Shown: in pieces, positions 10,358 to 61,932 of the stretch
How positions within the stretch are numbered: position 1 is the first letter of the stretch
Layout of the letters: each line of letters opens with the position of its first letter
Assembly (NCBI RefSeq): GCF_032884065.1
Contig: NC_088872.1
Coordinates: 33,824,917 to 33,888,916, forward strand
Source of the DNA: Artemia franciscana
Lineage: Eukaryota > Arthropoda > Branchiopoda > Anostraca > Artemiidae
Reading direction: 5' to 3'
Length of the DNA: 64,000 bases
Notes under the pieces: generated by a model
The model's database searches: none
What the model was told of the DNA's origin: nothing
Seen by the model: only the letters and a program-made list of their open reading frames with translations
Position numbers and translations under genes: made by a program

Positions 10358-10434
<77 letters not shown>

Positions 10435-30480: not shown

Positions 30481-30615
30481 TTAAGCCTCTTATTTTCCTT
30501 TTTAAATCAATTTATTGATTCATAGAATTTTGTTAGAGCTCATACCATATGATCTCTTGGCTCTTAGCTCTTCTCGCTTCGTCACAAGTGCCATATGAGC
30601 TCTTAGCTCTTGTTT
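30480..30615 (-). repeat. Head segment of the ~290-bp repeat family
   Basis: Reverse complement of the 'acaagagctaagagctcatatggcacttgtgacgaggcg' head seen at 21601, 48783 and 53085. It closes the array and overlaps the end of the methyltransferase pseudogene frame. Confidence 0.8.
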
Positions 30616-35559: not shown

Positions 35560-40075
<4,516 letters not shown>

Positions 40076-40394
40076 CTGCAAGACAATTGAAACGGTATTC
40101 AAAACTGTTTTCAGGTCTGTAGCCCAGATAGTGGATTCTTATGCAAGATAAGTTCTTTTTGCAAATGAATTTCGGGAAAATCAGTAAATTCCAATGTAAA
40201 CTATGAAAAAAAAAATTTTTTGGATAAACTTAGTAACTAAACTATGAAAACAGCAATCCTAAAAAAAAATCCAATAATTCTATGGCAAAATTTAGGGATT
40301 TTCCCAGATTTTCCTTTAATATTGATGAGTAAACTTCAATTGATTTTGGTTATTTTACTAAATTTGTAGCATATGGGTTCTCGCTAAGATTTTA

Positions 40395-41195
40395 CTACTA
40401 CTACTAACAATTCACAGCAGCGCCAAATGGCCTGATGCCAAAACAGCTACACCAGCTCTTCCTCCATCCTAATCTTTTCAAAGCAAACCTCTTTACATCC
40501 GCCCAAAAAATTTCCATTTTACTTAAATCCTTCCTTAAGACCTCCTCCCACTGCATTCCGATGGGACCTACTTTATGTTTGGCCGAAAAGAACGATTTTT
40601 GACAATCCATGATTGTTCATCCAAAGAACGTGTCCTAGCCATCACAACCTTTTTGTCATTATAGCCCTAAAAAGCGGGATAGAACCACATTTCATGTAGC
40701 TTGCTGTTTGAAATACAATCAGTCAGACAGGTACCCAAAAGAATCCGTAGACAATTTTCCGGAAACATCTAGCAATACCTTGCTTGACCACTGTCATCAT
40801 TGTGCCTTTGAATATTCAAATCTTGGTTCGCAGACTTATTTTCCAATTCTTTCAAACTTTTTCCCCAAATGTGAAAAAAAAACAACCTGGGTATCGACTA
40901 TTCAACTTTTAACATCTTCACTGCATGCACCATCTTTACTACTAACAATAACGGGTAATTGAGGCTATCCACTTGATTGATCTTCTTGTTACCCAGCGTA
41001 ACCTCTTCAACATAACTTTTCTCCAGTCTTATGTATTTAGTCTTCATAATATCAAAGCCTATTCTTGCACCCTGGACTCTCAAAACCTCCAAAATATCAA
41101 TCCTTTTGCAAATATTTGCTACCAGGACCCTCAGATCCTCAGCATAATCCAGGTTTACAAGAGTTTTACTTTCATTCAAAGTTATAATTTTCATA
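40395..41195 (-). mobile_element. Non-LTR retrotransposon relic, RT to 3' end
   Basis: The minus strand reads NLDYAEDLRVLVANICKR, then EVLRVQGARIG and KKINQVDSLNY (40898-41194). Toward the 3' end it reads MQWEEVLRKDLSKMEIFWAD, then VKRFALKRLGWRKSWCSC (40404-40610). This is the same LINE family as at 3890, 25241 and 26300. The catalytic YADD box has become YAED and the frames are broken. The element ends near a 'ctactactaac' tract at about 40395. Confidence 0.75.
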
Positions 41196-42889
41196 TTATT
41201 TAAATCATTGAAATTTTTATGGCCTGAGGAAAAGCAAAGGGTTCCAAACCAGTGCAGGAAAGGGACTAATACACGTTCTCAAGTCAACACGAAGCGCTTA
41301 AGCCGGCTTAGAGCCAGACAGCAAGAAGTCCCTGGAACCTCCAGTAGTTTTGTGTAGCTGAGCCCATCTTTTCACATCTTTCTATGGTTTTCCTCACTTG
41401 GCTATACTCTTCTATTAATAAGAGTGGAAATGCCGCAAAGCTAATCTCAAGCCTATTACCTCCGACTCATTGTATATTTCTGGTTGCAAATATTGTACTA
41501 CTATATAGAGATAGCCCATAAAAGATAACTTAGCCAGGAAAAGGCTCTTCAGCCCACATAAATTCACCAAAAGAGACCAAATACAGAAGAATTATCCATT
41601 CATCGTAATCCACTGTAAATGCGGTTTCGTTTACCAGGCTATGATTTCCTCGACGGGCACTACTGCTCAAGGTCACCCTGCATTGTCGTTTGCAGTCCCG
41701 GTTCTGGTTAGGCAAACCCATCAAAAGCCCACCAATCTTTAGGCTCCGACATGACATTAGTTTTTTATAGTGACTTTTACTAAAAAACTACAATTTTTTT
41801 TACAGTGCCAGCTATCTTCCAGTAGAGCTGCTCGCCTTTTGTTTCTCCCGCTTGACTCGGGGTTTTTCCTAAAACTAATTTGTTTGCTTTTAATTTTTTT
41901 CTGATAAATAGTCTCTCCACTTTAAAATGAACTATCCTTTAAAGGGCCCTGCACAAAAGAGAGCCAAGCCAAGGAAAGGAGTTTCAAGTCTAAACACCTC
42001 CAAAATGAGGTGACTAAAATTGAGTTGCTAACTTATGGTAAAAATTTTTTGGCAAAGGAATTTTCAATGATACATTGTCAATGCTTTCAAGCCAACGCAT
42101 ACCTGTGATGACACAAACATTTCAATTTCTGATGCCTTATGCCATCATCAGATGGCATTGTTAGGAGAATTTTTACTACTAAGCATAAAGATTTAAGCAC
42201 TAGCTTTCCAATACGCTCTTTGAGAATTTTGTATGATATTTCAGTGTTCCACTAGCAATGAAGGAATAAAAATAATAGAAGGAAAGGAGCATCAGCATTT
42301 GAAGCTCTTTTTCATATTTCAAAAAAATTGTTTTCGAGATTAACTTTACTGTTAAAACGAAAATAAGTAAATAACAGATCACATTCTAAAATCAAATCTG
42401 AAAAGTCTTTTTTCATTGGGCAATTTTATTCAAGACGTGTTTTTTTAGTTTTTACTTACTAAGGGCGCCCGCAAAGGAATGGAAAAGAAAGAGGTTGGTA
42501 ATCCTCCAGCTAAGAGTATTCAATTATAGGTATTATAACGGTACCCTTTTTTGCTTCCTTTTATGCGTGCCTTAATTTATGGGGAAAAAATCCCGTGAGT
42601 GATATGTATGAGCATATCTGCAGAGCATACATACGTCATTTTTACCTCAGTAGTGGTTGTATCGTTTTTAGTGTCTATGATGCAGGCAAAATTACACAAG
42701 AAACATAACTAGTTATAAAATACCATGTCTTTTTGCAAAGGGCGTTTTTAGCAGTTTCATATTGCCTTGAGGACAAATGACCATGAGCTTGGTAATTAAT
42801 TCTATTTTCAAAATTATTCTTGTTAATTGCAAAAGTTTTTTTAAATACATAAATTTCCTTTAAAATGTTCTCTATTAAACAGCTCATTT
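41196..42889. other. No recognisable gene
   Basis: 41690-41760 shares a repeat fragment with 5715-5850. A missing middle exon of the TMEM199-like gene could lie between 40076 and 45253, but I could not identify it. Otherwise there are short frames only. Confidence 0.4.
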
Positions 42890-44400
42890 AAACAGCTCTC
42901 TACGATATTCCAGTGCCGTGCTAGCTGAGAAGAGAGAGAGAAAAAAAAAAGATGCCGTATACACACAATATCATAGTTCAAGCAAATTTTCTTGTTTTTC
43001 AAGCCATTAGATTTTACTCGTTATTCAAGCCAAGAGACGGTACGTTTTCTATGAGGGGGTTCGGACAAGGCGGTTCTAATAGTGTACTTCTCGTTTTGAT
43101 CTGACAATATTTTGTTTCCCACCTTTTATGCTTCCCAGGCTTTCAACTGGAGAAATGGGATCAAGGCCAGCTATTTTGGGTGCTATATGGCGCTTTACGA
43201 TGGTGTTATCCATATAAATTTACAAAAAGCACGTAGACATGATTAAGAGCTCTGAAATGCCCGTTAAAAATTTCTCTACGATGTTGCAGTAGCCTGCGAG
43301 TCCCACTATTTAGCCAGCGATTTATAATCGCACGCTTCAAAGCCCTTTAACTCCAGATAGGGTCAGAAGCTTTAAATGATCATTAGATATCTGTCTACGT
43401 TGTTATGATTTATAAAAAAACGCGGAATTCATTGGACCATTCAAACCTGCCTCGTTTTTGAGTTTTGGGAGGGGGAAGGGGTCAAGAGTCAAGACATTTG
43501 ATGTAGGGTTTCCATCTATGGAGATTCTATTGGTACCCAATTTATGCTTCCCAGCTTCTCCAGAAATGAGACGAAAATTGCCATTTTTGGTGCAACATAG
43601 CACTTTATGATTGCGTTTGAAAAGCAAATTTACAAGAATTCCGCAGATATAATTAAGGACTTTTAAAATGGCCTTTTAACATCTCTCTACGGTGTTGTAG
43701 TAGCCTGATAATTCTGCTATTCTCTGGAACGTTTACGAATCCTACTAAGAGGTTGGGAGGGGAGTATACAAGAGACGTTAGTAAATCGCCAGTTAAGAAT
43801 TGTGACCACGATAATTATAAAGATATCCTTTCTATGCTTCTCAGCCTTTTTACTCTTGAAATCACAATAAAAAAACCAGTTTCGGTGTCATATCGCACTC
43901 ACAATAAAGCATTATCAGGAAAGATTTATAAAAGCAAATATACAGGATTAAGAGCTGTTGACTGGCCGCTAAAATTTTTTAAACGATCTTGCAGTAACCT
44001 GCTTGCAACTTAATAGACTAACTAACTTACTAGAAACAAAGGAGACACGTCAATCTTACCCATGCACATAGAGGATTCTCCAGAAAGGATTTCGACCAGC
44101 ATGATTCCATGCTGCAATTTTCTCATCGATAAGTCGGCATGTTCGAGATGTCTCAAAGTTTTTTTTTTTTCAAATTCCCATAAATTCGTTTTCGCAAGAA
44201 AATTTCGCTATAAAGCTTAAACGAAATAATAGTTACCATTCCTGAACCAGATTAGAATGTCTATTTTTTCTCACAAGACAGTTTTTTTCAACGCTCATTT
44301 TTAAACTTTCAGTAACTATGGGTCGTGGTTCACTCTTTAAAATGCTGCAGCTATCGTTACAATAATAATTTGTTTTCTCACGTCTTAACATCGCCTGTTC
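42890..44400. repeat. Diverged tandem repeat, ~300-410 bp period, then the dispersed family of 2.7 kb
   Basis: 'ctctacgatgttgcagtagcctg'-like blocks occur near 42898, 43273, 43684 and 43982. Each is preceded by related 'ttgcgtttga..agcaaatttacaagaattc' sequence. At 44040-44380 it passes into 'ctttcagtaactatgggtcgtggttcactcttta', shared with 3.7, 20.1 and 59.7 kb. Frames in this block are not genes. Confidence 0.6.
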
Positions 44401-44439
44401 ACCCTCATTTATTCTTAACATTAACTTCTGAACATATTG

Positions 44440-44660
44440 TAGCAAAGTTAGCTGTTATGATTTTTATCTAGGAATCCCAAATCAACAGCATAATCTGAAC
44501 CTAGGGTAGTTTTACTTTTCCATTCTATCAAATATTGAATGGAAACGATACTTTTACGGTGTTCTTCACGACACAAACCATCAAAATAATGTATATCCGC
44601 TGCAAACAGGGATAGGATGAGCTACGAACTACAGTCCATAATACCAAAAATTAAAAACAT
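44440..44660 (-). mobile_element. Small LINE (reverse transcriptase) relic
   Basis: Around 44470-44525 the minus strand reads TTLGSDYAVDLG, which aligns with the (K)TLLDLDYADDLS catalytic segment of the LINE family seen elsewhere. Neighbouring codons (ADIHYFDGLC) fit the preceding segment. It is heavily decayed. Confidence 0.45.
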
Positions 44661-45253
44661 ACTTTAATAAAACTGGTTAGTGAGAAAAAATTGCCATTTG
44701 GCTGTGGCTCAGGAATGGTAACTACTATCTCGAGTAATATCAATTGTGAAATGTTATCTTGAAAACAAGTTTATGGGAACTTCCGAAAATAGCCCGAAAA
44801 TCTTAAAAAAAGACGTCTTATGGAAACAAAAGTACACTGGAGGAATCACCGTGGTCAAAACCCCTATAAAGGATACTTAGAGTTCCCTGACTAGACAAAC
44901 AAGAAAAATCCCTTTTTGCATGGGTAGCACAGCACTGATGTGTTCTCTTTTTTTTCTCTTCATCACTCCTAGCAGAGCCCTAAAGCATCATAGAGAACTT
45001 GAATTATGAAAGAAAATTGCTATATGCACGTGCTTTTTAGGCAACAAAACAAAATGCTTAGAAAATAATTAAATTCTTGACAAAAAAAAACCTCATCTTC
45101 ATATGCCAATGATATAATACACGTATGTTTTGGCAAGAGATGATATAACACATATATACTTAAGAAAATTACTTTTCTGGGTTATGACATAGTATTTGTG
45201 GGATTCCGCTGCCCGACTCTCTTTGATTTGTTCTTTATATTCAATATATTTAC

Positions 45254-45370
45254 CTTATCTTTTCTAGTTTTTCCAAGCTTATCTGGAACTAATGCATCGG
45301 ATTTTATATGAAGATCAAAAATGAATGAATTAACCGAAATAACAAGACCATAATCATCATCAATCATCAT
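45254..45370 (-). CDS. Candidate first exon, possibly of the TMEM199-like gene
   Basis: From ATG at 45370 the minus strand reads MMIDDDYGLVISVNSFIFDL, then HIKSDALVPDKLGKTRKDK, ending at a good donor (AAG|GTAAAT) in phase 0. The acceptor of the exon at 40075 is also phase 0. The LVPDKL segment loosely resembles the LEPERLPRKL region of human TMEM199. Family alignment suggests about 30 residues would still be missing between them, so a middle exon would be needed. It may also be unrelated, because the split is inferred from position and weak similarity. Confidence 0.3.
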
Positions 45371-45539
45371 CAACAATAAGAACAGCAACGCAAAGAAACA
45401 AAATTACCATGATAATCAAGTTTAGTAGAAAGACTTAATGAAGAAGACTGAATGTGTAATATACAATGATATTAATTCCCGCAAGCATAATAAATTTACA
45501 ATTTACTAATGATGTAAGATATAAGAGAAAGCGTCTAAA

Positions 45540-46002
45540 ATATGTTTTGTTTTGACTAAAGATCACACAATATTTTATTCCAACGCTACAGTGTTACCGA
45601 TAGTAAAGAGCGACAAGGCTTCAATATTTTATGATTTTTTCCCCAGAGGAACTTCATATGAAAGGTGTTGCAGTACAAACTTCGGAAGGAACTCATTAGA
45701 ATGGAAATCGGCAGTTCTAGTGCCCTTTTTAGAGTCAAAAGTGATCAAAGGGCAACTATACCCCCCTCTTTTTACCAAATGCACCTGATCAAACTTTTGA
45801 GATAGCCATTTCGTTCAAAATAGTCAATGGGCAGTATAGCTAAGCCTCCAGGGTCAAACACCACAGCATATCGGGGTATAAGGTTTTATGGAAGGGATGG
45901 TGGTATAAACTTTGGAGGGGGCTCATTCGATTGGAAATCGAAAGTTCTTGCGCTCTTTTTAAGAGTCAAAAGTGATCGAAGGGCGATCCTTTTTCCTTTG
46001 AG
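45540..46002 (+). repeat. Units of the dispersed repeat that makes up the duplicated block
   Basis: 'gatcaaaatttttgagatagccat', 'caaaatagtc' and 'gcctccagggtcaaacacc' recur every ~300 bp from here through 47.2 kb. Each unit carries 'gaaaggttgttgtacaaactttggagggggctcattcgattggaaat'-like sequence. This part lies just outside the duplicated block. Confidence 0.6.
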
Positions 46003-49000
46003 CTCCCCTACCCACGTCCTTTCTCTCCCCAAATGCATTCGATCAAAATTTTTAGATAGTCATTTGTTCAATATAGCTCAGAGGTCAAAATACTTTGCCT
46101 TCAAGGTTGTCAACCCCCCCCCCACAGCTTCTGGGGCAAGGGCTGTAAGATATGAAAGTTGATTATTGTTAAAATGTAAAAATTTTATGAAAGAGGTGGT
46201 CGTACAAACTTGGAGAGGGCTCATTTGATTGGATGAAGAAATTTCTTCCGCTCTTTTTAAGAGTCAAAAGTGATCGAAGGGCAACTACCTCCCCTAAACC
46301 ACGCCATTTTCCCCCCAAATGCAACCGATCAAAATTTTTAAGAGAGCTATTTTGTTCAAAATAGTCCACAGACCGAAATAATAAGCCTCCAAGGTTGACA
46401 AAACTTCCACAGCCCCTGAGGCAAGGGCTATGAGTTATGCAAGTTGATCATTGTTAAGATGCAAAGTTTTTACGGAAGGGGTGGTCGCATAAAACCTGGA
46501 GGAGGGTTATTCGATTGGAAATCAGAAGTTCGAGTTCCGTTTCTGAGAATTGAAAATAATCGGAGAGCAACTATCCCCCCACACCCTTTTTCTCATGAAT
46601 GCATACGATCAAATTTTTGAGATAGCCATTTTGTGCAAAATAGTCAAAAGGTCGCATAACTACGCCTCCGGGATTGACACCCCCACAGCCCTGATGCAGG
46701 GGGTTTAAGTTGTGAAAGTTGCCCATTATTAAAATATAAGGTCTTTTATCGAGAAAAGCCCCGGGCAAGGATATGGAGCCCCAGGGCAAGAATAGTAAAT
46801 TACGCAATTTTTTAAAGTGTTTACATGCAGGGGAAGTTTCGTTTCTGGTGCATCCGTTTATGAAAAGTTTTGCAGTTTATAAGGTGTGCTAAAAGTGTTT
46901 GGAGGGCTGTCAGCGCCCTTTTATGCCCTCTTTAGCTGCCCTCTCATAATCATGCCTCTGGGAATGACAAGACCCTCCACAGCTTTCGAGAAGGATGCCG
47001 AATACAATCAAAGCTGGTTGTCAATAAGGAGTATCAGCAATATCTAAGGAACGGCCCCCTCCCCTCGACACTGATCAATTTTTTTAAAGTGATTTTGTTC
47101 GAAATAGGCAGAAGATCTAGTAACTATGCCTCCGGGGATGCAATGCCCCCAAAGCCTCATTGGCAAGGATTGTAAATTATAAATTTACCTTTATTTAATT
47201 GCTGGATTTGTCGTTCGAAAAAGGGGGAATGTTTGATTCTGATGATGTTCGTAAAGGTTATGTGCGAAATTCCGAGGAATACTGAGGGGCATGTTTAACT
47301 AAATAAAAAGATGCTTCAGTTTTTAGTTTTTAATATTTGCAATATCTCGATAACGGTTGAAGGTAATTAGTTTAAAATGTCAGGGCATGTTGGGGAGGAA
47401 GGATATTGAAAAATAATGGGAGGGCAGCCAGCCCCCCTGCCTAGCTCTTTTTAGCTGCAAAGGCTCCAAAGACATTTGACCGAAATTTCGGAATTGCTTT
47501 TGTTCATATATAAGGGGACAATTTTATCCTGAGTCTCCAAAAAGGCTAAGGGTATTATGGGAAAACCTCTTAAAATAGTGAGGGGGATGTCTCACAGAAT
47601 CAAAACCCACTATAGGCAAGAGGGCTGTCAAAAATTTACAATGAATGTCAAAATCATGTTGAGAGGGAAGTTGAAAAAGGAATGGAGAGCAACTAGCCCC
47701 CTCTTTTTTTCCTTTTAGATGCTCCCCTTTACAAAGATAGAAATATTAAGAAAACATTTTATTCAAAATAGTCACAAGGTTTAATAGCTTTGCCACCCCG
47801 AGATGCCATGCTCCCACAGGCCCGGGGGCAAGAATTGTAGATTATCCAATTTGTATGTTTTTAGCATATAGGAGGAGGGGGAGTCATTGGGATGGGGGGA
47901 ATATTTGATCCTGGGTGCGTCCAAAAAGACTAAGGGTATTGAGGTGAAATTTTGGGAGATTTTGAGGAGTATTTTGAGAAATCAAAAGACATTATCTACA
48001 ACCAAGTTATCAAAAAGTCATATCTACAATTTTTTAGGAAAGGGTAGGGGCAATATCTTAGGAACTTGAAATTATGAAGGTCACAACTAATACTACTGCA
48101 GCTGCAAATGGGACTGGTTCCAAATGCAAGAGTGGCTACTTCTGATTGCGACAACCTACGACTGTGATTAAGGCTGCTTGCAACTGGTACTACATTTACT
48201 TGTGACTACTTTCAGACAAGGTCTGGGAAAATTGAACAAAATCAAAACACACTATGTCCATGCTGATTGTCAAAAGGGCGCATCAGCAATATCTCAGTTA
48301 CGACTGAGGACATTAAGTTGAAACTTTTAAGTCATGTTGAATAGTGCTTGAGCCTTAAGGGAATGAATAGAAGGATTTTAAACTAAATCAAATGATACTA
48401 TGTGCATCCATGTTAAAAATAGAGTGTATCTGCAAAATCCTAAGAGCGGCTAAGGGTCAGAATATTCAATCAAAAGCTACTACGTACATCTCGTACTAGG
48501 TTTTCAGAAGGGCATATCTGAAATATCCAAGGGACAGCTAATAACATTTAGTTGAAAATTTTACAGAATGTTGAGGTGTTCTTGAAATAAATCAAATGCT
48601 ATGAATTAAAACTGTTAAATTAGACTTAAATATTTTAACTCTTAAGCCATAGACATGAAAAACTGGGCAAATATTCATTATATTCACCAAAACTGGCAAT
48701 AAAAAACGAACAGAAATTAATTTAAAATACTTACCGTAAAAAGAAGTTTTTCAAAAGAAAAGTTAAGAGCCATATTAAACTTAACAAGAGCTAAGAGCTC
48801 ATATGACACTTGTGACGAGGCAAGAAGAGCTAAGAGCCATAAACTCATATGGTATGAACACTAACAAAATTCTAAGAACCAATAGATTGATTTAAAAGGA
48901 AAATCAGAGGCTTAATACCGGTCAGGATTTAAAATAAGAACTCTGAGTCACGATGTCCTTCTAAATATCAAAATTCATTAAGATCCGATCACCCACTCGT

Positions 49001-49134
49001 AAGTTATAAATACCTCCTTTTTTCTAATTTTTCCTCTCCCTTTAGCCCCCCAGATGGTCGAATCTAGGAAAACGACTTTATCAAGTCAATTTGCGCAGCT
49101 CCCTGACACGCCTACCAATTTTCATCGTCCTAGC
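46003..49134 (+). repeat. Segmental duplication, copy A (3.13 kb)
   Basis: Nearly base-for-base identical to 50306-53436 (offset 4303, falling to 4302 after a C-run that is one base shorter in copy B). The only other difference I noticed is 'ttccaaatgc' at 48110 against 'ttcaaattgc' in copy B. The content is dispersed-repeat DNA (units with 'gatagccattttgt' and 'cccccacagcccc') ending with the head of the ~290-bp repeat family (48783-49133). No gene was found inside. The 60-78-codon frames occur in both copies and have no motif. Confidence 0.92.
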
Positions 49135-50309
49135 CACTTCAAAACGTCCTCTTAGCTTAGGTAAATGCTCGTCCAATAAGATGGAGGATTTTGTTATATA
49201 GTAAAGGTTCGTGTCAACGACTATACCAAGGGATTTTAGTAGATTCTGCGTGTTTTTATCACTGTGGACGACCTTTAAATAAAGAAAAGAGCATGATACA
49301 AACTATACAGCCTAGAAGGCAAATAAATTTTTATCAACAAAGAAAATCTTCCATGCAATTCCGGAAATCTGTTCCTAATGGGACGAAAAAAGTTGGTTGG
49401 TGTACTTAAAGAGGAACAAAATAAAGAGGAAAATGTTTAGTAAAAAATGCTAAAACTGGAAAATGGCTGATAACAATCTTTTTTTTTCTGATTCCAATAC
49501 CGATTTTACTCTCCCAGCAATTACAATTAGGCTACAACAACAATACAACTCCCTGTATCACAGTCTTTGTTTCAGTTTGTCATCATGAATTAATTGATTA
49601 AAAAGAACCATTGGTTCTTTCCATGACGTTATGAATGATAACGAGTCCTTTACAGATCTAGTCGTTGATTCATTTTAGTAACTTCTTGTCATTCTAATAA
49701 TACTGGTTGCACTACACTAAGATGATTTTTTTTTTTTTTTTTTTATGATTAAAATGACCACCATGAAACCTTTTTCTAAATGGAATCAACAGGCCAAATC
49801 GAATGACGCAAAGGATATAGCTGCCCTCTTATCATTTTTGGTTCGGAGGTTCAACACCATAAATCGCATTTTGCGCGTCTCAGTGTCACCTGACAGTCTC
49901 AAAGACAAAGGGTCCATTAGGAAATTTTTCCCAGCACCATATTTTCGAACAATAAGGAGAGGCTAGTGTAAAACAAAAAAACGTATAATCTCTCACTAAT
50001 TGTTAAACAAAACGTTGTCAAATCAATGTACACACAGAATAATTAGAGTGCATCCCAGATAGATAGATAGACATCTACTTTATTTCGTGATTAAACCAAA
50101 AACAGGTATTTCACAGAAAAAACGCAAACATTACATAAAAAGTGGAAAAGAATACACACTATCGAAAACAAAACATAAGCACTAAATAAAAGACAAGTCT
50201 CTTCGTGCGGGATAAAAATCTGTTTACAATAGTCCGGACTCTATTATTTCTAATTAACAGTGATAGAGGAATTGGCCCATTTATTTCATACTCACTTAAT
50301 TTGAACTCC
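49132..50309 (+). repeat. Inserted segment, copy of 61792-62967
   Basis: Nearly identical to 61792-62967; the differences seen are two T-run lengths and one T/G substitution (a T at about 49589, a G at about 62247). It carries, in antisense, the first 141 nt of the exon at 61732-61932, intron sequence, a poly-T tract (49725-49744), a GATA run and the 3' end of the LINE found at 62712-64000. It lies exactly between duplication copies A and B. The junctions share 'agc' (49132-49134) and 'ctcc' (50306-50309) with both partners. Confidence 0.9.
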
Positions 50310-53300
50310 CCTACCCACGTCCTTTCTCTCCCCAAATGCATTCGATCAAAATTTTTAGATAGTCATTTGTTCAATATAGCTCAGAGGTCAAAATACTTTG
50401 CCTTCAAGGTTGTCAACCCCCCCCCACAGCTTCTGGGGCAAGGGCTGTAAGATATGAAAGTTGATTATTGTTAAAATGTAAAAATTTTATGAAAGAGGTG
50501 GTCGTACAAACTTGGAGAGGGCTCATTTGATTGGATGAAGAAATTTCTTCCGCTCTTTTTAAGAGTCAAAAGTGATCGAAGGGCAACTACCTCCCCTAAA
50601 CCACGCCATTTTCCCCCCAAATGCAACCGATCAAAATTTTTAAGAGAGCTATTTTGTTCAAAATAGTCCACAGACCGAAATAATAAGCCTCCAAGGTTGA
50701 CAAAACTTCCACAGCCCCTGAGGCAAGGGCTATGAGTTATGCAAGTTGATCATTGTTAAGATGCAAAGTTTTTACGGAAGGGGTGGTCGCATAAAACCTG
50801 GAGGAGGGTTATTCGATTGGAAATCAGAAGTTCGAGTTCCGTTTCTGAGAATTGAAAATAATCGGAGAGCAACTATCCCCCCACACCCTTTTTCTCATGA
50901 ATGCATACGATCAAATTTTTGAGATAGCCATTTTGTGCAAAATAGTCAAAAGGTCGCATAACTACGCCTCCGGGATTGACACCCCCACAGCCCTGATGCA
51001 GGGGGTTTAAGTTGTGAAAGTTGCCCATTATTAAAATATAAGGTCTTTTATCGAGAAAAGCCCCGGGCAAGGATATGGAGCCCCAGGGCAAGAATAGTAA
51101 ATTACGCAATTTTTTAAAGTGTTTACATGCAGGGGAAGTTTCGTTTCTGGTGCATCCGTTTATGAAAAGTTTTGCAGTTTATAAGGTGTGCTAAAAGTGT
51201 TTGGAGGGCTGTCAGCGCCCTTTTATGCCCTCTTTAGCTGCCCTCTCATAATCATGCCTCTGGGAATGACAAGACCCTCCACAGCTTTCGAGAAGGATGC
51301 CGAATACAATCAAAGCTGGTTGTCAATAAGGAGTATCAGCAATATCTAAGGAACGGCCCCCTCCCCTCGACACTGATCAATTTTTTTAAAGTGATTTTGT
51401 TCGAAATAGGCAGAAGATCTAGTAACTATGCCTCCGGGGATGCAATGCCCCCAAAGCCTCATTGGCAAGGATTGTAAATTATAAATTTACCTTTATTTAA
51501 TTGCTGGATTTGTCGTTCGAAAAAGGGGGAATGTTTGATTCTGATGATGTTCGTAAAGGTTATGTGCGAAATTCCGAGGAATACTGAGGGGCATGTTTAA
51601 CTAAATAAAAAGATGCTTCAGTTTTTAGTTTTTAATATTTGCAATATCTCGATAACGGTTGAAGGTAATTAGTTTAAAATGTCAGGGCATGTTGGGGAGG
51701 AAGGATATTGAAAAATAATGGGAGGGCAGCCAGCCCCCCTGCCTAGCTCTTTTTAGCTGCAAAGGCTCCAAAGACATTTGACCGAAATTTCGGAATTGCT
51801 TTTGTTCATATATAAGGGGACAATTTTATCCTGAGTCTCCAAAAAGGCTAAGGGTATTATGGGAAAACCTCTTAAAATAGTGAGGGGGATGTCTCACAGA
51901 ATCAAAACCCACTATAGGCAAGAGGGCTGTCAAAAATTTACAATGAATGTCAAAATCATGTTGAGAGGGAAGTTGAAAAAGGAATGGAGAGCAACTAGCC
52001 CCCTCTTTTTTTCCTTTTAGATGCTCCCCTTTACAAAGATAGAAATATTAAGAAAACATTTTATTCAAAATAGTCACAAGGTTTAATAGCTTTGCCACCC
52101 CGAGATGCCATGCTCCCACAGGCCCGGGGGCAAGAATTGTAGATTATCCAATTTGTATGTTTTTAGCATATAGGAGGAGGGGGAGTCATTGGGATGGGGG
52201 GAATATTTGATCCTGGGTGCGTCCAAAAAGACTAAGGGTATTGAGGTGAAATTTTGGGAGATTTTGAGGAGTATTTTGAGAAATCAAAAGACATTATCTA
52301 CAACCAAGTTATCAAAAAGTCATATCTACAATTTTTTAGGAAAGGGTAGGGGCAATATCTTAGGAACTTGAAATTATGAAGGTCACAACTAATACTACTG
52401 CAGCTGCAAATGGGACTGGTTCAAATTGCAAGAGTGGCTACTTCTGATTGCGACAACCTACGACTGTGATTAAGGCTGCTTGCAACTGGTACTACATTTA
52501 CTTGTGACTACTTTCAGACAAGGTCTGGGAAAATTGAACAAAATCAAAACACACTATGTCCATGCTGATTGTCAAAAGGGCGCATCAGCAATATCTCAGT
52601 TACGACTGAGGACATTAAGTTGAAACTTTTAAGTCATGTTGAATAGTGCTTGAGCCTTAAGGGAATGAATAGAAGGATTTTAAACTAAATCAAATGATAC
52701 TATGTGCATCCATGTTAAAAATAGAGTGTATCTGCAAAATCCTAAGAGCGGCTAAGGGTCAGAATATTCAATCAAAAGCTACTACGTACATCTCGTACTA
52801 GGTTTTCAGAAGGGCATATCTGAAATATCCAAGGGACAGCTAATAACATTTAGTTGAAAATTTTACAGAATGTTGAGGTGTTCTTGAAATAAATCAAATG
52901 CTATGAATTAAAACTGTTAAATTAGACTTAAATATTTTAACTCTTAAGCCATAGACATGAAAAACTGGGCAAATATTCATTATATTCACCAAAACTGGCA
53001 ATAAAAAACGAACAGAAATTAATTTAAAATACTTACCGTAAAAAGAAGTTTTTCAAAAGAAAAGTTAAGAGCCATATTAAACTTAACAAGAGCTAAGAGC
53101 TCATATGACACTTGTGACGAGGCAAGAAGAGCTAAGAGCCATAAACTCATATGGTATGAACACTAACAAAATTCTAAGAACCAATAGATTGATTTAAAAG
53201 GAAAATCAGAGGCTTAATACCGGTCAGGATTTAAAATAAGAACTCTGAGTCACGATGTCCTTCTAAATATCAAAATTCATTAAGATCCGATCACCCACTC

Positions 53301-53436
53301 GTAAGTTATAAATACCTCCTTTTTTCTAATTTTTCCTCTCCCTTTAGCCCCCCAGATGGTCGAATCTAGGAAAACGACTTTATCAAGTCAATTTGCGCAG
53401 CTCCCTGACACGCCTACCAATTTTCATCGTCCTAGC
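50306..53436 (+). repeat. Segmental duplication, copy B (3.13 kb)
   Basis: Second copy of 46003-49134. Unlike copy A it continues without a break into further units of the ~290-bp repeat family at 53437. Copy B therefore has the natural right flank and copy A the natural left flank. Confidence 0.92.
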
Positions 53437-54220
53437 ACGTCCAGAAGCACCAAATTCGCCAAATCACTGAGCCCCTCCCCCCAACTCCCCGAAAGAGAGC
53501 GAATCCAGTACGGTTACGTCAATCACGCATCAAGGACATTTGCTTATTCTAAACACCAAGCTTCATCCCGATTCCTCCACTCCAAGTGTTTTCCAAGATT
53601 TCCCCCTCCAACTCCCCCCAATGTCAAAAGATCTGGTCGGAATTTGAAATAACCTCTGAGACACGAATTCCTTCTAAATATCAAATTTCATTAAGATCTG
53701 ATCACCTATTCGTACGATAAAAATACCCCAATTTTCACGTTTTCCAAGAATTCCGATTTCCCCCTCCAACTCCCCCAATGTCTTTACACGTTCAGAAGCA
53801 CCAAACTCGCCAAAGCACTGAACCCCTCCCCCCAACTCCCTCAAAGAGAGCGAGTACAGTACGGTTACGGCAATCACACATCTACCACATCTGCTTATTC
53901 TATCCACCAAGCTTCATCCCGATTCCTCCTATCTAAGCGTTTTCCAAGATTTCCGATTTCCCCCTCCAACTCCCCCCAATGTCAACAGATCTGGTCGGGA
54001 TTTGAAATAAGAGCTCTGAGACATGAATTCCTTCTAAATATCAAATTTCATTAAGATCTGGTCACCCGTTCGTAAGCTAAAAATACCTCATTTTTCCGAA
54101 TTACCCCCACCCCAACTCCACCAAAGAGAGCGGATCCCGTCCAGTTACGTCAGTCACGTATCTTAGACCTGTTTTTATTCTTCCCATTCAGTTTCGACGA
54201 TTTTCAGAAATAGCCCAAAT
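53085..54220 (+). repeat. ~290-bp repeat family, head plus about three body units
   Basis: Head 'acaagagctaagagctcat' at 53092, then body units with 'cagaagcaccaaattcgccaaa', 'agcttcatcccgattcctcc' and 'aattccttctaaatatcaaatttcattaagatct'. In order it is the inverse of about 29680-30615. Confidence 0.85.
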
Positions 54221-54446
54221 AACCTAACCCAAACTCACCATTGGGAGGACCGCATAGGTTTTTTCAAGGGACAAGGAAGAAAGGGAGGAAATAAGCTCAA
54301 CAAAAGAGCATAACACGCAAATTGAATTACATTATATACAAGAAGGTCATGGAAAATGCAAAACCAAGAAAAGTAGTAAGATGGAAGGATGGCTAGGACA
54401 CGTCCATCTTATACATTCGAAAAGTTTAGCCTTTAAAAAATGATAC

Positions 54447-54790
54447 CTGTGTTATTTTCTGTTTTATCCATTCAATGTCGTTTCTTTTCAAGTTTCCATT
54501 CTCTCCTCTCTTAACACTGAGAACTCTTTCTGGAAAATCGGCAGAGTCATCTAGATTTCGAATATACTCAATGAGCATCGCACCGGGCTTGATTTCAATG
54601 TGATTCATTGGAATGACGATGACTGTTGCTCTCTATGAAGTGACCTCTCTAAATTTTCGTAATATTCCCTTAATCGAACTTCTTCTTCTTTGAATTTGTT
54701 ATCGATTGCAACGGAAAGGTCAGAGATATCTGCGAAAACTTGATTCAAATGCTTTTTCCGCTCAAGACGACATTTTTCTATCTTCTCACA
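54447..54790 (-). pseudogene. Coiled-coil-like exon with a frame break, unrecognised gene
   Basis: After a TTTTTTTAG acceptor at 54790 the minus strand reads CEKIEKCRLERKKHLNQVFA, then KFKEEEVRLREYYENLERSL, ending at a stop at 54605. This is a charged, heptad-like helix, reminiscent of the coiled coil after a B-box or RING domain. The next frame starts at 54608 with MNHIEIKPGAMLIEYIRNLD, continues LKRNDIEWIKQKITQ and ends at a good donor (CAG|GTATCA, exon edge 54447). Both parts look coding but lie in different frames that overlap by a few bases. Either there is a frameshift (pseudogene or sequencing error) or there are two separate exons. No family is assigned. Confidence 0.4.
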
Positions 54791-54892
54791 CTAAAAAAAC
54801 GAAAAAGAAAAAGGCTTGTTTTATGCGGCCAAGAAATTTTCAAAAGAAACATTTGAAATTCCATTTCAAAAGAAGCAATTATAAACAAATGT

Positions 54893-55050
54893 CCTGTAAT
54901 CGCGCAGTGGATTTAACCTTAGCTTGGTCTTGGTAATACGGGACCCAAAGATCGAATCACGCTGCAGGAATGCACTGCAGGGCCGACGCAGGGACCATAG
55001 TAGTCAAGAAGCGTCGTTAATTCTTAAATAAAAAATAATAATAATAAACA
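54893..55050 (+). mobile_element. tRNA-derived SINE with (AAT)n tail
   Basis: 'gtaatcgcgcagtggatttaacc' resembles a Pol III A-box and 'caaagatcgaatcacg' a B-box. A short body follows ('gccgacgcagggacc'), and the 3' end is 'aaataaaaaataataataataaa'. The parent tRNA is not clear. Boundaries are approximate. Confidence 0.6.
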
Positions 55051-55178
55051 TCAGGATACATCCTCGAGTAGCTTGTCTTGGTCTAACAAGTCCAGGATAA
55101 ATACGTAATAAGTCCCCCTCATATGCGTTATAAATTTTCTCTTCGTCTTAAATTTGTGTCCGGTTTTTTTTATTTAAT

Positions 55179-55389
55179 CAAGGAGGCACACTCGTGCCTC
55201 TATAAAGAGGCGAACCACGACAATGTGGTTCCAGTGGTCGCAGAGGGATGGGGAGGGATGCATTTCGTAGCCCAGGCTCCAACTAAGAAACCTGCCAAAT
55301 TTCATCCCCCTCCGACTTTTCCTTCATGGGGAAAATCTGGCCGAAAGTTTCGACCCACCAACCCTAGCCCCCCTTTAACGTTGTCCGAT
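55179..55389 (+). repeat. Dispersed repeat, first copy
   Basis: It begins 'aaggaggcacactcgtgcctc' (with a small hairpin GAGGCAC..GTGCCTC) and runs to 'cgttgtccgat'. It is nearly identical to 55762-55984. A frame with HFVAQAPTKKPAKFHPPP spans both copies and is repeat-derived. Confidence 0.85.
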
Positions 55390-55761
55390 CGGGCCACCAT
55401 GCTATGGTATCAAAGCGACAGAAACTTTCTTGCTTCAAAACGAAATAAAATATTACACGCCTTTCTCAATTTAAAACAAAGTAAATATTCAAGAAGGTTC
55501 AAAAACTGCTCTTGACGATCATAACAATTGACCACCAGTGTAGACGCTACTTCTACATAGAATACAATTAGTTTTGTCTGTCAGCGGCAATAGTTATTTC
55601 ATCTTTGCATCTTAATGAAAAAAAAAATTCTGTAAATATATCATGCTAAAACTGACAGTCCAGCACCTGAATGTGTATTCTTTTAAAGAATCTCTCTGTC
55701 ATATGTCCCCAATTATCATATATAAACAACTCAAGTTGAGTTTTTTAATGTATGTCACTTT

Positions 55762-56339
55762 CAAGGAGGCACACTCGTGCCTCTATAAAGAGGCGAACCA
55801 CGACAATGTTAAGCGATCTTCGGTTCCAGTGGTCGCAGAGGGATGGGGAGGGATGCATTTCGTAGCCCGAGCTCCAACTAAGAAACCTGCCAAGTTTCAT
55901 CCCCCTCCGACTTTTCCTTCATGGGGAAAATCTGGCCGAAAGTTTCGACCCACCAACCCTAGCCCCCCTTTAACGTTGTCCGATGAATTCCTTTAACGTT
56001 GAAAGTTAAGGTCCCCTAGGGCCCAGGAGCTTATCCGCGAAATTTCAGCTCGATCCGATAACTCCTTCCCTGTTTTCCAGAAACCACGCATAGCCACTTA
56101 ATCTTCATATTATTTTTTTTTCTGCCACGCCTACAGGTCACAGCCGACATCGGATCTGGGTGTACGAAGACTCATTCGACGCGGAATTCTCCGAGTAAGT
56201 GCCCTTGAAAGTTTCGTAGGAAAATCTTAACCCCCCGATTTTCTAGCTTAGAAAAACCCATTTCCCCATAAGAGCCCATGTTAATTTTTGAAATTCTTAA
56301 AAGTTATTTTTAACTGTTAGCTCAAGTTAACTGTTAGCT
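55762..56339 (+). repeat. Dispersed repeat, second and longer copy
   Basis: Same start as 55179 with a 12-14-bp insertion after 'gacaatgt', then the shared part to 55984. It continues ~350 bp ('ggagcttatccgcgaaatttcagctcgatccgata') up to the tRNA-like sequence. The tRNA may be part of this composite unit. Confidence 0.7.
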
Positions 56340-56412
56340 ACCCGGTTAGCTCAGTCGGTAGAGCGTGGGACTTTTAATCCTAAGGTCAAGGGTTGAAGTC
56401 CCTTATCGGGCG
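56340..56412 (+). tRNA. tRNA-Lys(UUU)-like gene or pseudogene
   Basis: 73 nt fold as a tRNA. The D-arm is GCTC/GAGC, the anticodon stem TGGGA/TCCTA around CTTTTAA (anticodon UUU), and the T-stem AAGGG/CCCTT. The acceptor ACCCGGT/ATCGGGC is fully paired except for an A1-C72 mismatch. The T-loop reads TTGAAGT, so the near-invariant C56 is G. This weakens the B-box and the C56-G19 tertiary pair. Eight Ts follow one base after the 3' end, as for Pol III termination. No CCA is encoded. The defects and the repeat context favour a pseudogene or SINE head, but it is close to intact. Confidence 0.6.
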
Positions 56413-56424
56413 GTTTTTTTTCAC

Positions 56425-56587
56425 AAAATATGAAAAAAACTTCGTTTTCTTAAAGAGTTAAAGAGGCTGCGTCCCAAAGTCGAACCTTAAACCGTACAGG
56501 AATTAGGAGAGGCAGTCCTAATTCCTGTACGAGGAGTACAGGAATTATTAAATTACGTCCACCATGGATTGTAGAAAAACGTACAGA
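56425..56587. mobile_element. Truncated foldback copy with internal hairpin
   Basis: It shares 'aacttcgttttcttaaagagttaaagaggctgcgt' through 'gtacaggaattaggagaggcag' with the left arm of the next element. A perfect 15-bp hairpin follows (GTACAGGAATTAGGA at 56494-56508, complement at 56516-56530). The 63-codon minus frame over it is not a gene. Confidence 0.7.
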
Positions 56588-56960
56588 AATAATATGAAAA
56601 ATACTTCGTTTTCTTAAAGAGTTAAAGAGGCTGCGTTCCAAAGTCGAACCTTAAAACGTACAGGATTTAGGAGAGGCAGTTGGGGGGCTGCCGCCCCCCA
56701 AACCCCCCGCTTTTAAAGACTCTTTTGTACAGGTTTTTTGTTTTGTTAATTAAAAGAGGGCCTTTCCGAAGCCAAGAGCGGGGGGTTAGGGGGGCAGCAG
56801 CCCCCCACAACAAAAAACCTGTACAAAAGAGTCTTTAAAAGCGGGGGGTTTGGGGGCGGCAGCCCCCAACTGCCTCTCCTAATTCCTGTACGTTTTAAGG
56901 TTCGACTTTGGGACGCAGCCTCTTTAATCTTTAAGAAAACGAAGTTTTTTTCATATTATT
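56588..56960. mobile_element. Foldback element with ~155-bp inverted arms
   Basis: The left arm 56588-56742 and right arm 56809-56960 are near-perfect inverted repeats (AATAATATGAAAA...CAGGTTTTTTGTT). The 66-bp spacer itself carries G/C hairpin sequence ('ggggggcagcagcccccc'). No coding capacity, so it is a MITE/foldback type. Confidence 0.85.
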
Positions 56961-57085
56961 ACCTTCAAAGGACGGACGTAAAACTAATCTACATAAAAAT
57001 ATAAAGTTTAAAAAATCATCAAAGAAAAGATATAAGAAAATCCAGAGATGTGGATATTCAATGAAAGATGTGGCTCTAAACTGAT

Positions 57086-57382
57086 ATTAAATAAAAAAAA
57101 CTAGTTTTTTTAACTGAAAGTAAGGAGCGACATTAAAACTTAAAACGAACAGAAATTACTCCGTATATGAAATGGGTTGTCCCTCCGCAGTCCCTCGCTC
57201 TTTACGCTAAAGTTTGACTCTTTGCCACAATTCTACTTTTTAAAACAACTAAAAACTTTAGCGTAAAGAGCGTGGGACTGGGGAGGGGACAACCCATTTC
57301 ATATACGGAGTAATTTCTGTTCGTTTTAAGTTTTAATGTCGCTCCTTACTTTCAGTTAAAAAAACTAGTTTTTTTATTTAAT
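57086..57382. mobile_element. Foldback element with ~130-bp inverted arms
   Basis: Arms 57086-57215 and 57253-57382 (ATTAAATAAAAAAACTAG... to ...TTTACGCTAAAGTTT) are almost perfect inverted repeats around a 37-bp spacer. The arm tips next to the spacer carry 'GCTCTTTACGCTAAAGT', shared with the hairpin at 57802. Confidence 0.88.
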
Positions 57383-57469
57383 TTCTGAACGTTTTTGAAT
57401 TAATGCATGTTTGATTTTGGCTCTCCGCACATAAATTATTGAAATGAAATTAGTAAATTAATTTTTTTT

Positions 57470-57801
57470 TTGGCTAAATGGCTTTCTCTTAGTTTTGATC
57501 AGACGATTTTGAGAAATAAGGGGTGGGGAAGGAGGCCTAGCTGCCCTCCAATTTTTCGGTTACTTAAAAAGGCTACTAGAACTTTTAATATTCAACGAAC
57601 GTTTTTATTAGTAAAAAATATACGTAACTTAAGAATTAATTTACGTAACAAACTTTTATATTCTTATATTTTTATTATGTGTACGAGGGGGTTTGTACCC
57701 TCGTTAATACCTCGCTCTTTACACTAAATCGTAAGTTTTGTTCCAATTCTTTAAGAATGACCCCTGAATCAAATAGACCGTAGAATAAATAGTTGAAATC
57801 A
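57470..57801. repeat. Dispersed repeat with foldback-type motif
   Basis: 'gctgccctccaatttttcggttacttaaaaaggctactagaacttt' (57540-57580) is the family seen at 58330-58375 and 3290-3320. 'taatacctcgctctttacactaaa' at 57703-57726 carries the motif of the neighbouring foldbacks. The 85-codon frame is repeat-derived. Confidence 0.5.
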
Positions 57802-57879
57802 CTAAAAATATTTTAGCATAAAGAGCGAGGTATTTATCTCCTCCTAAATACCTCGCTCTTTATGCTAAAGTATTTTTAG
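57802..57879. mobile_element. Short hairpin, 35-bp arms, 8-nt loop
   Basis: CTAAAAATATTTTAGCATAA... (57802-57836) pairs with 57845-57879 with one mismatch. It contains 'ACCTCGCTCTTTATGCTAAAG' in its right arm, the motif of the foldback at 57086. It could be the collapsed core of a foldback element. Confidence 0.75.
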
Positions 57880-58189
57880 AACCCTTCATATGCGTAATAA
57901 TCTCTGTTTGTTTTAAATTTCAATGCTATTCCTTACTTTCATTTGAAAAAACGTTTTCATGTTTATTTTTTCATTGTTTTTTTTTTATAGTAATGCTAGA
58001 AAATCCTGCGCCCTTTTCATTGAATTTTTTCCCCCATGGCATATTTCTCCAAGGAAAGATCCTCCCACATAGCCCCCTCCCTCAACCCTACCCCCAAAAC
58101 CAAAAAAATCCCCCTGAAAACGTCTGTACACTTCCCAAATAACCATTATTATATGTAAACACTGGTTGAAGTTTGTAACTTGCAACCCC

Positions 58190-58470
58190 TCCCCCAGGGA
58201 CTGTGGGGGAGTAAGTCATCCCCAAAAACATAGTTATTAAGATTTTCGACTATGCCAAACAAAATGGCTATCTCAAAATTTTGATCCGTTGACTTTGGGA
58301 AAAAAATGAGCGTGGGAGGGGGCCTAGATACCCTCCAATTTTTTTGGTCACTTAAAAAGGGCACTAGAACTTTTCATTTCCGTTAGAATGAGCCCTCTTG
58401 CGACATTCTAGGACCACTTGGTCGATACGATGACCCCTGGGAAAAAAAAACAAACAAACAAAAAAACAAA
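58190..58470. repeat. Dispersed repeat (family of 2.7-3.8 kb)
   Basis: 'aaacaaaatggctatctcaaaattttgatc', 'tttggtcacttaaaaagggcactagaactttt' and 'gcgacattctaggaccacttggtcgatacgatgacccctgg' are dispersed-repeat blocks. An A-rich tract (58441-58480) follows. Confidence 0.6.
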
Positions 58471-61400
58471 CAAATAAACACGCACCCGTGATTTGTCTTC
58501 TGGCAAAAAATGCAAAATTCCACATTTTTGTAGATAGGAGCTTGAAACTTCTACAGTAGGGTTCTCTGATACGCTGAATCTGATTGTGTCATTTTCGTTA
58601 AGATCCTACGACTTTTAGGGGGTGTTTCTCCTATTTTCCTAAATAAGGCAAATTTTCTCAGGCTCGTAACTTTTGATGGCTAAGACTAAACTTGATGGAA
58701 CTTATATATTTAAAATCAGCATTAAAATGCGATTCTTTTGATGTAGCTCTTTATATCAAAATTCAATTTTTTAGAGTTTTGGTTACTATTGAGCCGGATC
58801 GCTCCTTACTACAGTTCGTTACCACGAACTGTTTGATACCTCTTCGAAATATATGAGTTTAATTTCAAATTTATTTTTACAAAAAGTTGTTCTAGGATCC
58901 ATTTTGAGTAAGGTGCTTCAAATTAGTTTCCTCAGTATTTATGGTGTCTAGCTAATCCAACAAAAGCTTTATTGATATTGCGGCAGCAACAGGAAGATGA
59001 TAGCATTGTAAGTAATACGCAGATCCAAGCTTAAAATTAATCTCAAAACGGAATTAATTATAAAAAGTATAACAAAAATAAATCTTAAAGTTAATGGAAA
59101 TAAAAAGTGAAGTTGAAACTCAAAACAAAACTCATTATTATGCCTTCGAAGCCTTCTGAACATACATCAATTAAACTAGAACAAATAAAACTACCAGTGG
59201 TATTCCCATATGCTTGGAGGATACTGAGAGACTAGCGCTTTACTGAAGACTCAAAACTCCCGCATAACAAATAAGAATGTTTCACCTTTAGGTCTACTGT
59301 GAAATTTCCTTAAAATGCTTTATATTTCCGCTAGAAGCAAAATCCCTATTTAGTTTTGCAAAATTTAGTTTCAAGTTTCCAGTTTTTGCAAACATTACAT
59401 AACACCTTAGGTGCTACATAGGTGCTACATGCTACGTTTTGTATTCATGTTAAATATAAATAAATCTAATCCAAATATTTTTACTAGTATAGGTAACGGT
59501 TCAATTAGCAGCAGAGACTTTACTAAGTCTCTGCTGCTAATGTAATCATGATAAAAAAGATCCGTTCAAGATGGGGAGGGGGATAATTCCCTAGTTAAGG
59601 GTTTTCAACGATGATGATTTCAAAATAATAATTTTTTGATTAGATCTAACATTGCGTTCGAAGGGTTTCAGGGTCTCAAACTTTCAGTTACTATGAGCCG
59701 TGGTTCACTCTTTACTAGGTTGCATTTACGGCTTCAACCATGATATTTATGTAATTTTAAGAAGACTCAAGCTTGGAACGTATCGACAAGACGCAACGAC
59801 GATTTATGACGGCAATATTTAGTGAGACTACGGGCGTTCCATGGGATAATGCCGGATGCACACTGCCGTAAGTAGCCTAAGTTAAGTAGCACAAGTTACG
59901 AGCTTTTACTTGGGTTTCTTCACATTGAACTTTTCCCATTCATATTGAAACATTATTATTAAAAAAAATAATGTTTAGGATTAGGCAAAGATTTTCAACT
60001 TTTATTTGAGAAAATCAATGAAAAAAAATGTCACTCCAAGATTTTGAAAAATACACTTTGTCTACCCCCCCCCCACATTTTTACCAATTGATGCCCCTGT
60101 TTACAACAATAGTCTGTAATATTGCCTGATATGACACACCTTTCACCTTCAACAATTCGAAAAAACCAAACTACAAGTTAATGTTACAATTTGACAATGT
60201 ACAGATCACTAGCACCTATAAATACATTTTTGCCATTAAATAAAGGTAGGCTAGTTTCGCCTAAAGTCCATTAAAATTCAAGGAGACATTAAAGGTCAAT
60301 TTCTTCTTAGTTTTGCTACTTATTCTATCCTGAAACTTGACAACACCTTACCATAAATTGTTACAAAATGTTGCATTTACTGTTTTTATACAGCCTCTAC
60401 TAGCAGCCGATAATAACTTTTAGTATCTTACTTTTAGCACATACTTTGGACTTGCTAAAGAAAATTTTGAAATTTAACTATTCTATAGACCTATTCCTAA
60501 AATAGTATCCACTAAACTACAAAAATTGACACATTAAAAGGCGACAATCCTAGAATTACTTAGTAGCCACGGAAAATTCCAGATGAACTACCTATCTTGG
60601 AATGTGTCCTTGCACTATTTGTTCTTCGGGTTGAACACATATGACCTATTCCAATAAAATAAATGATCATATTTTCAACTTATGCCATTTTTCAAGTACA
60701 GTTTATAATAAAATTCTCAAGTAATTATTACTAGGTTGATAAATATTCAACTTCTTAAGTAGCCTAAGTTACGTGAACTAAATGAAAGCACAATTTGTGT
60801 ACAGTAAATTAAGTCTGTCTTCCATTGAAATTTGAACGAAACGAAAAACCTATGTGCATTCTGCGTAAGACCTTGGGGCTCCAGAGGCAAGTCTCGCTCT
60901 TCATACTAAGACCTTAATCGAAATAATTTCAAAATCTCATATCCTTATCCCCACTTTCCAGAATTCTCCAGCTTTGAATCTCTAATGACAGACACAAGCT
61001 TTATCCCAACATGAAGAGATCAACGAGCAAAAAACATGCTTATTAATACATGTCAAATCTTACATAAATGAACCTTTTTGGTCTTAAATGATCATGCTCT
61101 GAGATTTAAACCCCATAACCATTCTCAAGCACCAGAATGATCCTGACATCATGACTGCCTAAAAATGGGACCTGTAAGTACAATATCTTTACTTTTTAGG
61201 CCATAAAGGATTCAACAAAATAGTTTAAAAAACATTTGTAGCTGTTAACGCAATAATACAGGTGATCAGACGAAAAAGAAAATACATATACTCCTCAGCA
61301 TAGAGTAATCAAGGCTTAGAGCTAAAACCAGTTTTAGATCATCTATCAGTTGGGTTCTAAGTTGGGCGAAAGATGACGAAACACAGCTGCATATAAAGCC

Positions 61401-61731
61401 AAACCCCCGAAGGTCGATCCGACTGAGCTCCCCCCAAAAAGCTTTCAAAAATTCAGTTTCACAAACACATTTTAGGCATCAAATTCTACTACCCCAAAAT
61501 ACATTCCTAACATCAAAGATCCCCCTAAACATCCCCAGATTACCTTCCTAAACATCAAAGAACTGTAAAACAATTATTTCATATATTGAGCTTTCACACA
61601 TGTGGATAAGGAACAGAAAATCGGTTCTCTCCGACCAAACAGACGGCTCTTTAACTCTGGTACGTCCTAATCCAAACCAAGAATTTTTTTTTACATAAGA
61701 TACTTCGATTTTGATATGCAAATCTACTTAC
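58471..61731. other. No recognisable gene; repeat fragments and one hairpin
   Basis: 59560-59760 is another copy of the 'gagccgtggttcactctttacta' repeat. On the minus strand 61320-61420 has an open stretch (SSFAQLRTQLIDDLKLVLALSLDYSMLRS), after a TTTATATGCAG acceptor, that looks helical. Its phase does not join the exon at 61732-61932, so I do not call it. Confidence 0.4.
59504..59541. other. Perfect 17-bp hairpin
   Basis: ATTAGCAGCAGAGACTT, loop TACT, then the exact complement. Arms are short for a microRNA precursor. Function is unknown. Confidence 0.7.
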
Positions 61732-61932
61732 GTTTCTCTGGGACAAAGAGGAAAATGGACAAAAATCAACAAAGTCTTCAGCAATTTCACAAGCCACTTC
61801 AAAACGTCCTCTTAGCTTAGGTAAATGCTCGTCCAATAAGATGGAGGATTTTGTTATATAGTAAAGGTTCGTGTCAACGACTATACCAAGGGATTTTAGT
61901 AGATTCTGCGTGTTTTTATCACTGTGGACGAC
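61732..61932 (-). CDS. Single clean exon of an unrecognised gene
   Basis: 201 nt, phase 0 at both ends, between a TTTATTTAAAG acceptor (61934-61933) and a strong donor AAC|GTAAGT. It encodes 67 residues including NTQNLLKSLGIVVDTNLYYI and LPKLRGRFEVACEIAEDFVD, ending PFSSLSQRN. It is probably alpha-helical with no motif I recognise. The flanking exons were not found: a helical stretch at 61320-61420 is out of phase, and upstream is LINE sequence. The first 141 nt of this exon are also present in the inserted copy at 49132-49272, without the donor side. That copy is therefore a broken exon fragment. Confidence 0.55.

Follow-up and report, generated by a model that had tools for sequence, protein, structure and literature searches.

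How did a 3.13-kb segment of the brine shrimp (Artemia franciscana) genome come to lie twice in direct orientation, with a 1.18-kb copy of a neighbouring sequence exactly between the two copies? The window analysed here, meaning the whole stretch of 64 000 nucleotides (C10:33824917-33888916), has a GC content of 36.8% and contains no N, the base counts adding up to 64000. It was compared with itself by BLAST and with the animal's own assembly (1,270,528,402 bases in 6468 contigs). These own-genome searches score the best 40 candidates, so that all counts given below for short multi-copy parts are lower bounds.

Layout of the rearrangement

Self-comparison of the window aligned 45997-49134 with 50300-53436 (99.87% over 3138 columns, plus/plus) and 49132-50309 with 61792-62967 (99.75% over 1178 columns, plus/plus). 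The first pair contains the duplicated segment, as copy A (46003-49134, plus strand) and copy B (50306-53436, plus strand), which are near-identical direct copies with 2 substitutions in 3125 aligned bases. The second pair consists of the insert, D' (49132-50309, plus strand), and its donor in the old place, D (61792-62967, plus strand), which has the same orientation and from which D' differs by 1 substitution in 1176. The insert lies exactly between A and B, as a first-pass annotation made from the letters alone had described, and the coordinates and orientations given there proved correct to the base. The final order is L-A-D'-B-R...D (L and R being the outer flanks), with A-D'-B in gapless sequence, and this rearranged form was seen once in the assembly. 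The spacer of 8,355 bp from B to D (53437-61791) is copy-normal and was left unduplicated by this event. Inside the copies, A and B differ in a C-run that is one C shorter in B and in a CCAAAT that reads CAAATT in B, while the one substitution between D' and D (T at 49590, G at 62249) is accompanied by one additional T in each of two T-runs of D'. The last 352 bp of A (48783-49134) are part of a multi-copy repeat. Up to about 62716 (about 0.9 kb) D is represented among the genome matches listed only by itself, D' and D2 (its counterpart in a second copy of the region, see below), and from about 62717 onward it is part of a multi-copy element.

The natural left flank had been assigned to A and the natural right flank to B, and both assignments hold. 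On the left, a single 97.6% alignment between the window and the second copy of the region (39440-49129) passes through 46003 without loss of collinearity. On the right, the repeat in which A ends was followed in four of its copies, taken from the 49 listed genome matches to A, and all four align unbroken across 53436 (90.8-94.1%); an inverted copy at 29910-30614 also runs unbroken across this position (90.8%). Because both outer flanks are continuous in other copies, L|A and B|R are the old joins, kept by A on the left and by B on the right, and A|D' and D'|B are the new ones (J1 and J2 respectively).

A second copy of the region in the ancestral order

Full-length A and full-length D were each found three times among the best 40 candidates of the own-genome search, as A, B and A2 and as D, D' and D2. 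A2 (C10:34171301-34174438) and D2 (about 34183293-34184461) lie in one contig (C10:34147546-34197252, 49.7 kb), which has a 100-N gap on each side and is situated about 300 kb from the window. Here L leads into a single A, D' is absent and the flanks of D are the same as in the window, which is the ancestral order predicted for the locus. Collinearity with the window extends from 34135 to about 10.2-10.4 kb beyond the window end, about 38 kb in all, at about 96-99% identity in long alignments, the exceptions being tandem arrays around 36-39 kb and a final kilobase that matches less well. On its left side, 10.3 kb of the contig shows no collinearity with the window (matches of at least 92% over at least 200 bases), part of it having many near-identical copies elsewhere, and the last 1.3 kb or so is likewise not collinear. 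No long second copy of window positions 12000-20000 was present among the matches listed. A Vma12-family gene has four matches in the assembly, two per copy, in these two places only.

The simplest reading of this contig, and the likely one on its sequence features, is an unpurged second haplotype. The female A. franciscana assembly described in PMC11492255, which is taken as the closest to this one, was made with long-read DNA from a pool of 14 females and is reported there to retain some duplication (5.9% duplicated BUSCOs). Less simply, the contig may be a true segmental duplication; against this stand its extent of 49.7 kb between two gaps, the length of the collinearity and the presence of the Vma12-family gene in just two places. 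Either way, the second copy serves as an outgroup.

Relative to the window the second copy carries an additional 968 bp at 54195 and lacks 164 bp at 56500. It also lacks a 351-bp tandem unit that lies next to B in the window (53429-53779), so that A's right edge can be followed in it no further than the start of this unit. The breakpoint of the missing unit (C10:34174421-34174440) is within about 5 bases of J1, which may be a coincidence or may mark a weak spot.

Divergence between the copies

The first-pass annotation had named a mis-assembled haplotype as the main alternative to a true duplication. A and B differ by 2 substitutions in 3125 bases (0.06%), as against 48 in 3123 (1.54%) between A and A2 and 50 in 3122 (1.60%) between B and A2. 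Similarly, D' and D differ by 1 in 1176, as against 13 in 1168 for D and D2 and 14 in 1168 for D' and D2. In the surrounding sequence, window and second copy are separated by 25 substitutions in 1972 bases to the left of A/B, 12 in 2203 to the right, 36 in 4696 in the interval from R to D and 22 in 1032 to the right of D. If A and B were alleles of the kind that A and A2 represent, 48 differences would be expected and two or fewer would occur with a Poisson probability of about 2e-18; for D' and D as alleles, one difference or none against 13 expected has P = 3e-5. The mixed-haplotype alternative fails because A and B are so close to each other while each stands about 1.6% from the second copy, taken as the yardstick for alleles at this locus, and it was rejected: the divergence between the copies is not at allele level. 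Near-identical haplotypes could occur among 14 pooled females, yet they would not place D' between the copies. Judged by these substitution counts, the A/B and D/D' pairs arose well after the two versions of the region had separated. The locus also illustrates how a leftover haplotig helps to distinguish a true recent duplication from a fault of assembly.

Junctions and polarity of changes

Short stretches of common sequence are present at both new joins. At J1, where the end of A passes into D', there is a 3-bp microhomology, AGC (49132-49134, plus strand), common to 53434-53436 (A's natural continuation) and 61792-61794 (the edge of D). At J2, where the end of D' passes into B, there is a 4-bp microhomology, CTCC (50306-50309, plus strand), within an imperfect 10-bp match (TTTGA[A/G]CTCC, 9 of 10 positions). 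At 10 bp and 90% this match falls within the range of microhomeology given in PMC6902434 (7-14 bp, 70-90%). With breakpoint pairs placed at random in both zones, at least 3 bp of microhomology would occur at J1 with a probability of 0.066 and at least 4 bp at J2 with a probability of 0.023. A local-similarity score, compared with 200,000 random pairs, gave P = 0.078 for J1, P = 0.0013 for J2 and P = 0.0007 for the sum of both; J1 taken alone is not significant by either measure. Each join carries microhomology or microhomeology, as expected of FoSTeS/MMBIR events.

With the second copy as outgroup, three changes could be polarized, and all three are derived in D' or B, with none in A or D. Two of them are in D', where 49590 has changed from G to T and the T-run near 49479 has lengthened; the third, in B, turned CCAAAT into CAAATT (52422-52427). 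Two further run-length differences were left unassigned. The polarity, resting on three changes of which one bears on direction, agrees with D' and B as the new copies and with rightward synthesis; three changes prove little, and the run-length differences could be explained by consensus errors. FoSTeS/MMBIR is also marked by additional point mutations in newly synthesized DNA, but three changes are too few to speak for or against this feature here.

A probable single copying event and its alternatives

Template switching in a single recent event on one chromosome, in which D was copied (1.18 kb) and A re-copied (3.13 kb), would account for the layout, for the ancestral order of the second copy, for microhomology at each new join and for the recent origin of the copies. 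We put the probability of a single copying event at roughly 0.78. A growing DNA end would have copied A as far as 49131-49134 and switched from there to AGC at 61792, which in the original order lay about 8.4 kb further downstream. It would then have copied 1.18 kb of D, returned at CTCC to where A begins and copied A for a second time, after which synthesis would have continued into the normal right flank. The route may have been FoSTeS/MMBIR or the restart of a broken fork, perhaps closed by polymerase-theta joining. The template-jump layout proposed in the first-pass annotation (out to D, back, and A recopied) is supported by the flanks and by the ancestral order; that there was one event, that it proceeded by template switching in replication or repair synthesis and that it ran rightward is what we infer from them. 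Sequence alone cannot separate FoSTeS, MMBIR and theta-type repair from one another, and a Drosophila breakpoint study (PMC4056370) describes FoSTeS, MMBIR and serial slippage as essentially indistinguishable by their breakpoints. Under template switching the proximity of the missing 351-bp unit to J1 is left as a coincidence.

The same product could be made without a fork, by abortive strand-annealing synthesis at a two-ended break: one end would copy A (from the sister) and then the nearby D, and polymerase theta would join the ends. We tentatively allot this route a minority share of the probability given above. The 1.18-kb insert is long for a patch made by polymerase theta, which counts against the fork-free route, and the sequence does not separate it from the fork-based one. 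In its favour, PMC8654963 describes tandem duplications of the C. elegans germline, arising in helq-1 mutants, that have microhomology and occasional templated insertions and are POLQ-1-dependent.

An artefact of assembly or library, with a chimeric molecule or a wrong join yielding A-D'-B, is in our estimation unlikely. The pooled females and residual duplication of PMC11492255 and the likely unpurged haplotig nearby speak for it, but A and B are unlike the alleles seen at this locus, and the window has none of the 100-N scaffold gaps that bound the second copy. The long-read methods as given in PMC11492255 include no amplification step. Moreover, 3-4 bp of common sequence would seem too little to confuse an overlap assembler, and two joins at microhomology of this length with D intact elsewhere look unlike a repeat-induced join. 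On present evidence the rearrangement appears to be real, and it is young and well resolved.

A small circle in which A and D had been linked through both microhomologies, and which re-entered by crossover within A, would give the same final order but would require an extra intermediate and a second step, which nothing in the sequence demands, and we consider it very improbable. Insertion of D' as a mobile element with a 3.13-kb target duplication, or its later insertion into an existing tandem pair, is scarcely credible, since although the insert is flanked by direct copies and D includes part of a multi-copy element, about 0.9 kb of D' occurs otherwise only at D and D2 among the matches listed, both ends of D' lack a poly(A) tail and coincide with the A/B borders, and the duplication is far longer than the usual target duplications of elements. 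The combination of defined ends, tail, short target duplication and independent copies that marks a transposon insertion was not found, and a transposon with a giant target duplication was rejected, there being no tail, no independent copy of D with the same ends and no full D beyond D2 and D' among the matches listed.

Gene context

The left edge of D cuts a probable exon (61735-61932, minus strand), in which an acceptor-like TTTATTTAAAG and a donor-like GTAAGT enclose an open frame, the splice sites having been judged by eye. It sits in the open frame 61651-61962 (minus strand), with 192 bases identical in the second copy; this frame had no Pfam match and no PDB match up to E = 1, and 61735-61932 is probably an exon of an unnamed gene. 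The original at D is intact. The minus strand of D' carries a truncated copy, which keeps the acceptor and most of the frame, has lost the donor and ends at J1. Among frames of at least 70 aa over 46003-53436, Pfam gave no match at E <= 0.1 (best 0.2, DUF5536), this result covering 7 of the 14 frames as scanned and 5 more with the same translation, with 49721-49966 and 50190-50450 (both plus strand) left out. Likewise, no match at E <= 0.1 was obtained for three of the four frames of at least 60 aa over D (62385-62624, plus strand, left out).

The Vma12-family and ankyrin/SOCS matches of the window are split over separate minus-strand open frames, with the Vma12 exons at 35.6-40.1 kb. The open frame 54605-54790 (minus strand) shows resemblance to the C terminus of Muted-family proteins (23.0 bits, the curated cut-off being 26; E = 1e-4). 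Should this frame be the final exon of a gene, A-D'-B would be intergenic, with Vma12 on the other side. Other features of the window include a single tRNA match (56340-56412, plus strand, 62.1 bits) and an imperfect palindrome of about 300 bp (57086-57385, 89.8% self-complementary). Two stretches, 10192-12077 and 35889-39416, have in common a GGGACAC minisatellite and A-rich/T-rich tandem arrays with (AT)n, in direct and inverted orientation. The open frame 38805-39314 (minus strand) has no Pfam match; by eye, we take its initial stretch to resemble the end of Pif1/Helitron helicases.

Comparison with known systems

Four kinds of described rearrangement are comparable to A-D'-B, and the first three arrive at an identical final order. 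As in the DUP-NML-DUP alleles of PMC6902434, there are two direct duplications with a copy-normal interval between them and microhomology or microhomeology at the joins, A and D being doubled and 53437-61791 not; the alleles described there are human Xq22 disease alleles with intervals up to megabases, whereas the interval here is 8.4 kb. The two-junction cycle of templated insertions (PMC7025897, according to which most such cycles have two junctions) is similar in that the chain of copies rejoins the host chromosome, part of which is then replicated anew, as is found in the gapless A-D'-B, although those cycles come from cancers and typically join different chromosomes. The sample here, if the assembly is that of PMC11492255, is a pool of whole animals. 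In the cis reciprocal duplication 'ABEBC' of PMC10482687, for which microhomology-mediated break-induced replication is proposed, a short E lies between two copies of a longer B with minimal homology at the joins. Those rearrangements are somatic and enriched in BRCA1-deficient tumours, whereas ours is in an animal's assembly. In the size ranges given there, 3.13 kb fits the long segment (1-300 kb) and 1.18 kb is slightly above most E segments (50 bp-1 kb), but the partners are mostly interchromosomal or more than 10 Mb apart. A-D'-B appears by analogy to work like a cis ABEBC duplication and is not filed as a member, because its partners are about 8.4 kb apart. Finally, the helq-1 germline tandem duplications of PMC8654963, which range from about 100 bp up to 10 kb with a median of about 1 kb, share the kilobase size, the microhomology and the occasional templated insertion, but arise in a mutant background and are said there to be rare in wild type.

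What the present locus offers is a two-switch rearrangement resolved to the base, with its donor, both junctions and the probable unrearranged allele in one assembly. A literature search for Artemia and microhomology found no paper on such events by title, which is no proof of absence. The cases compared come from human disease, from tumours and from nematode mutants; if the event is real, the same kind of event occurs in a crustacean, and its pattern, A-D-A with D nearby, could be counted in long-read assemblies. It is conceivable, though we think it highly doubtful, that A-D-A scars are a standing type of germline mutation in brine shrimp, for example from the repair of breaks collected by dried cysts. 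Were that true, a signature of repair-deficient tumours would have a natural counterpart in a healthy animal, countable genome-wide. Set beside the systems above, A-D'-B is a clean new example of an already known kind of rearrangement.
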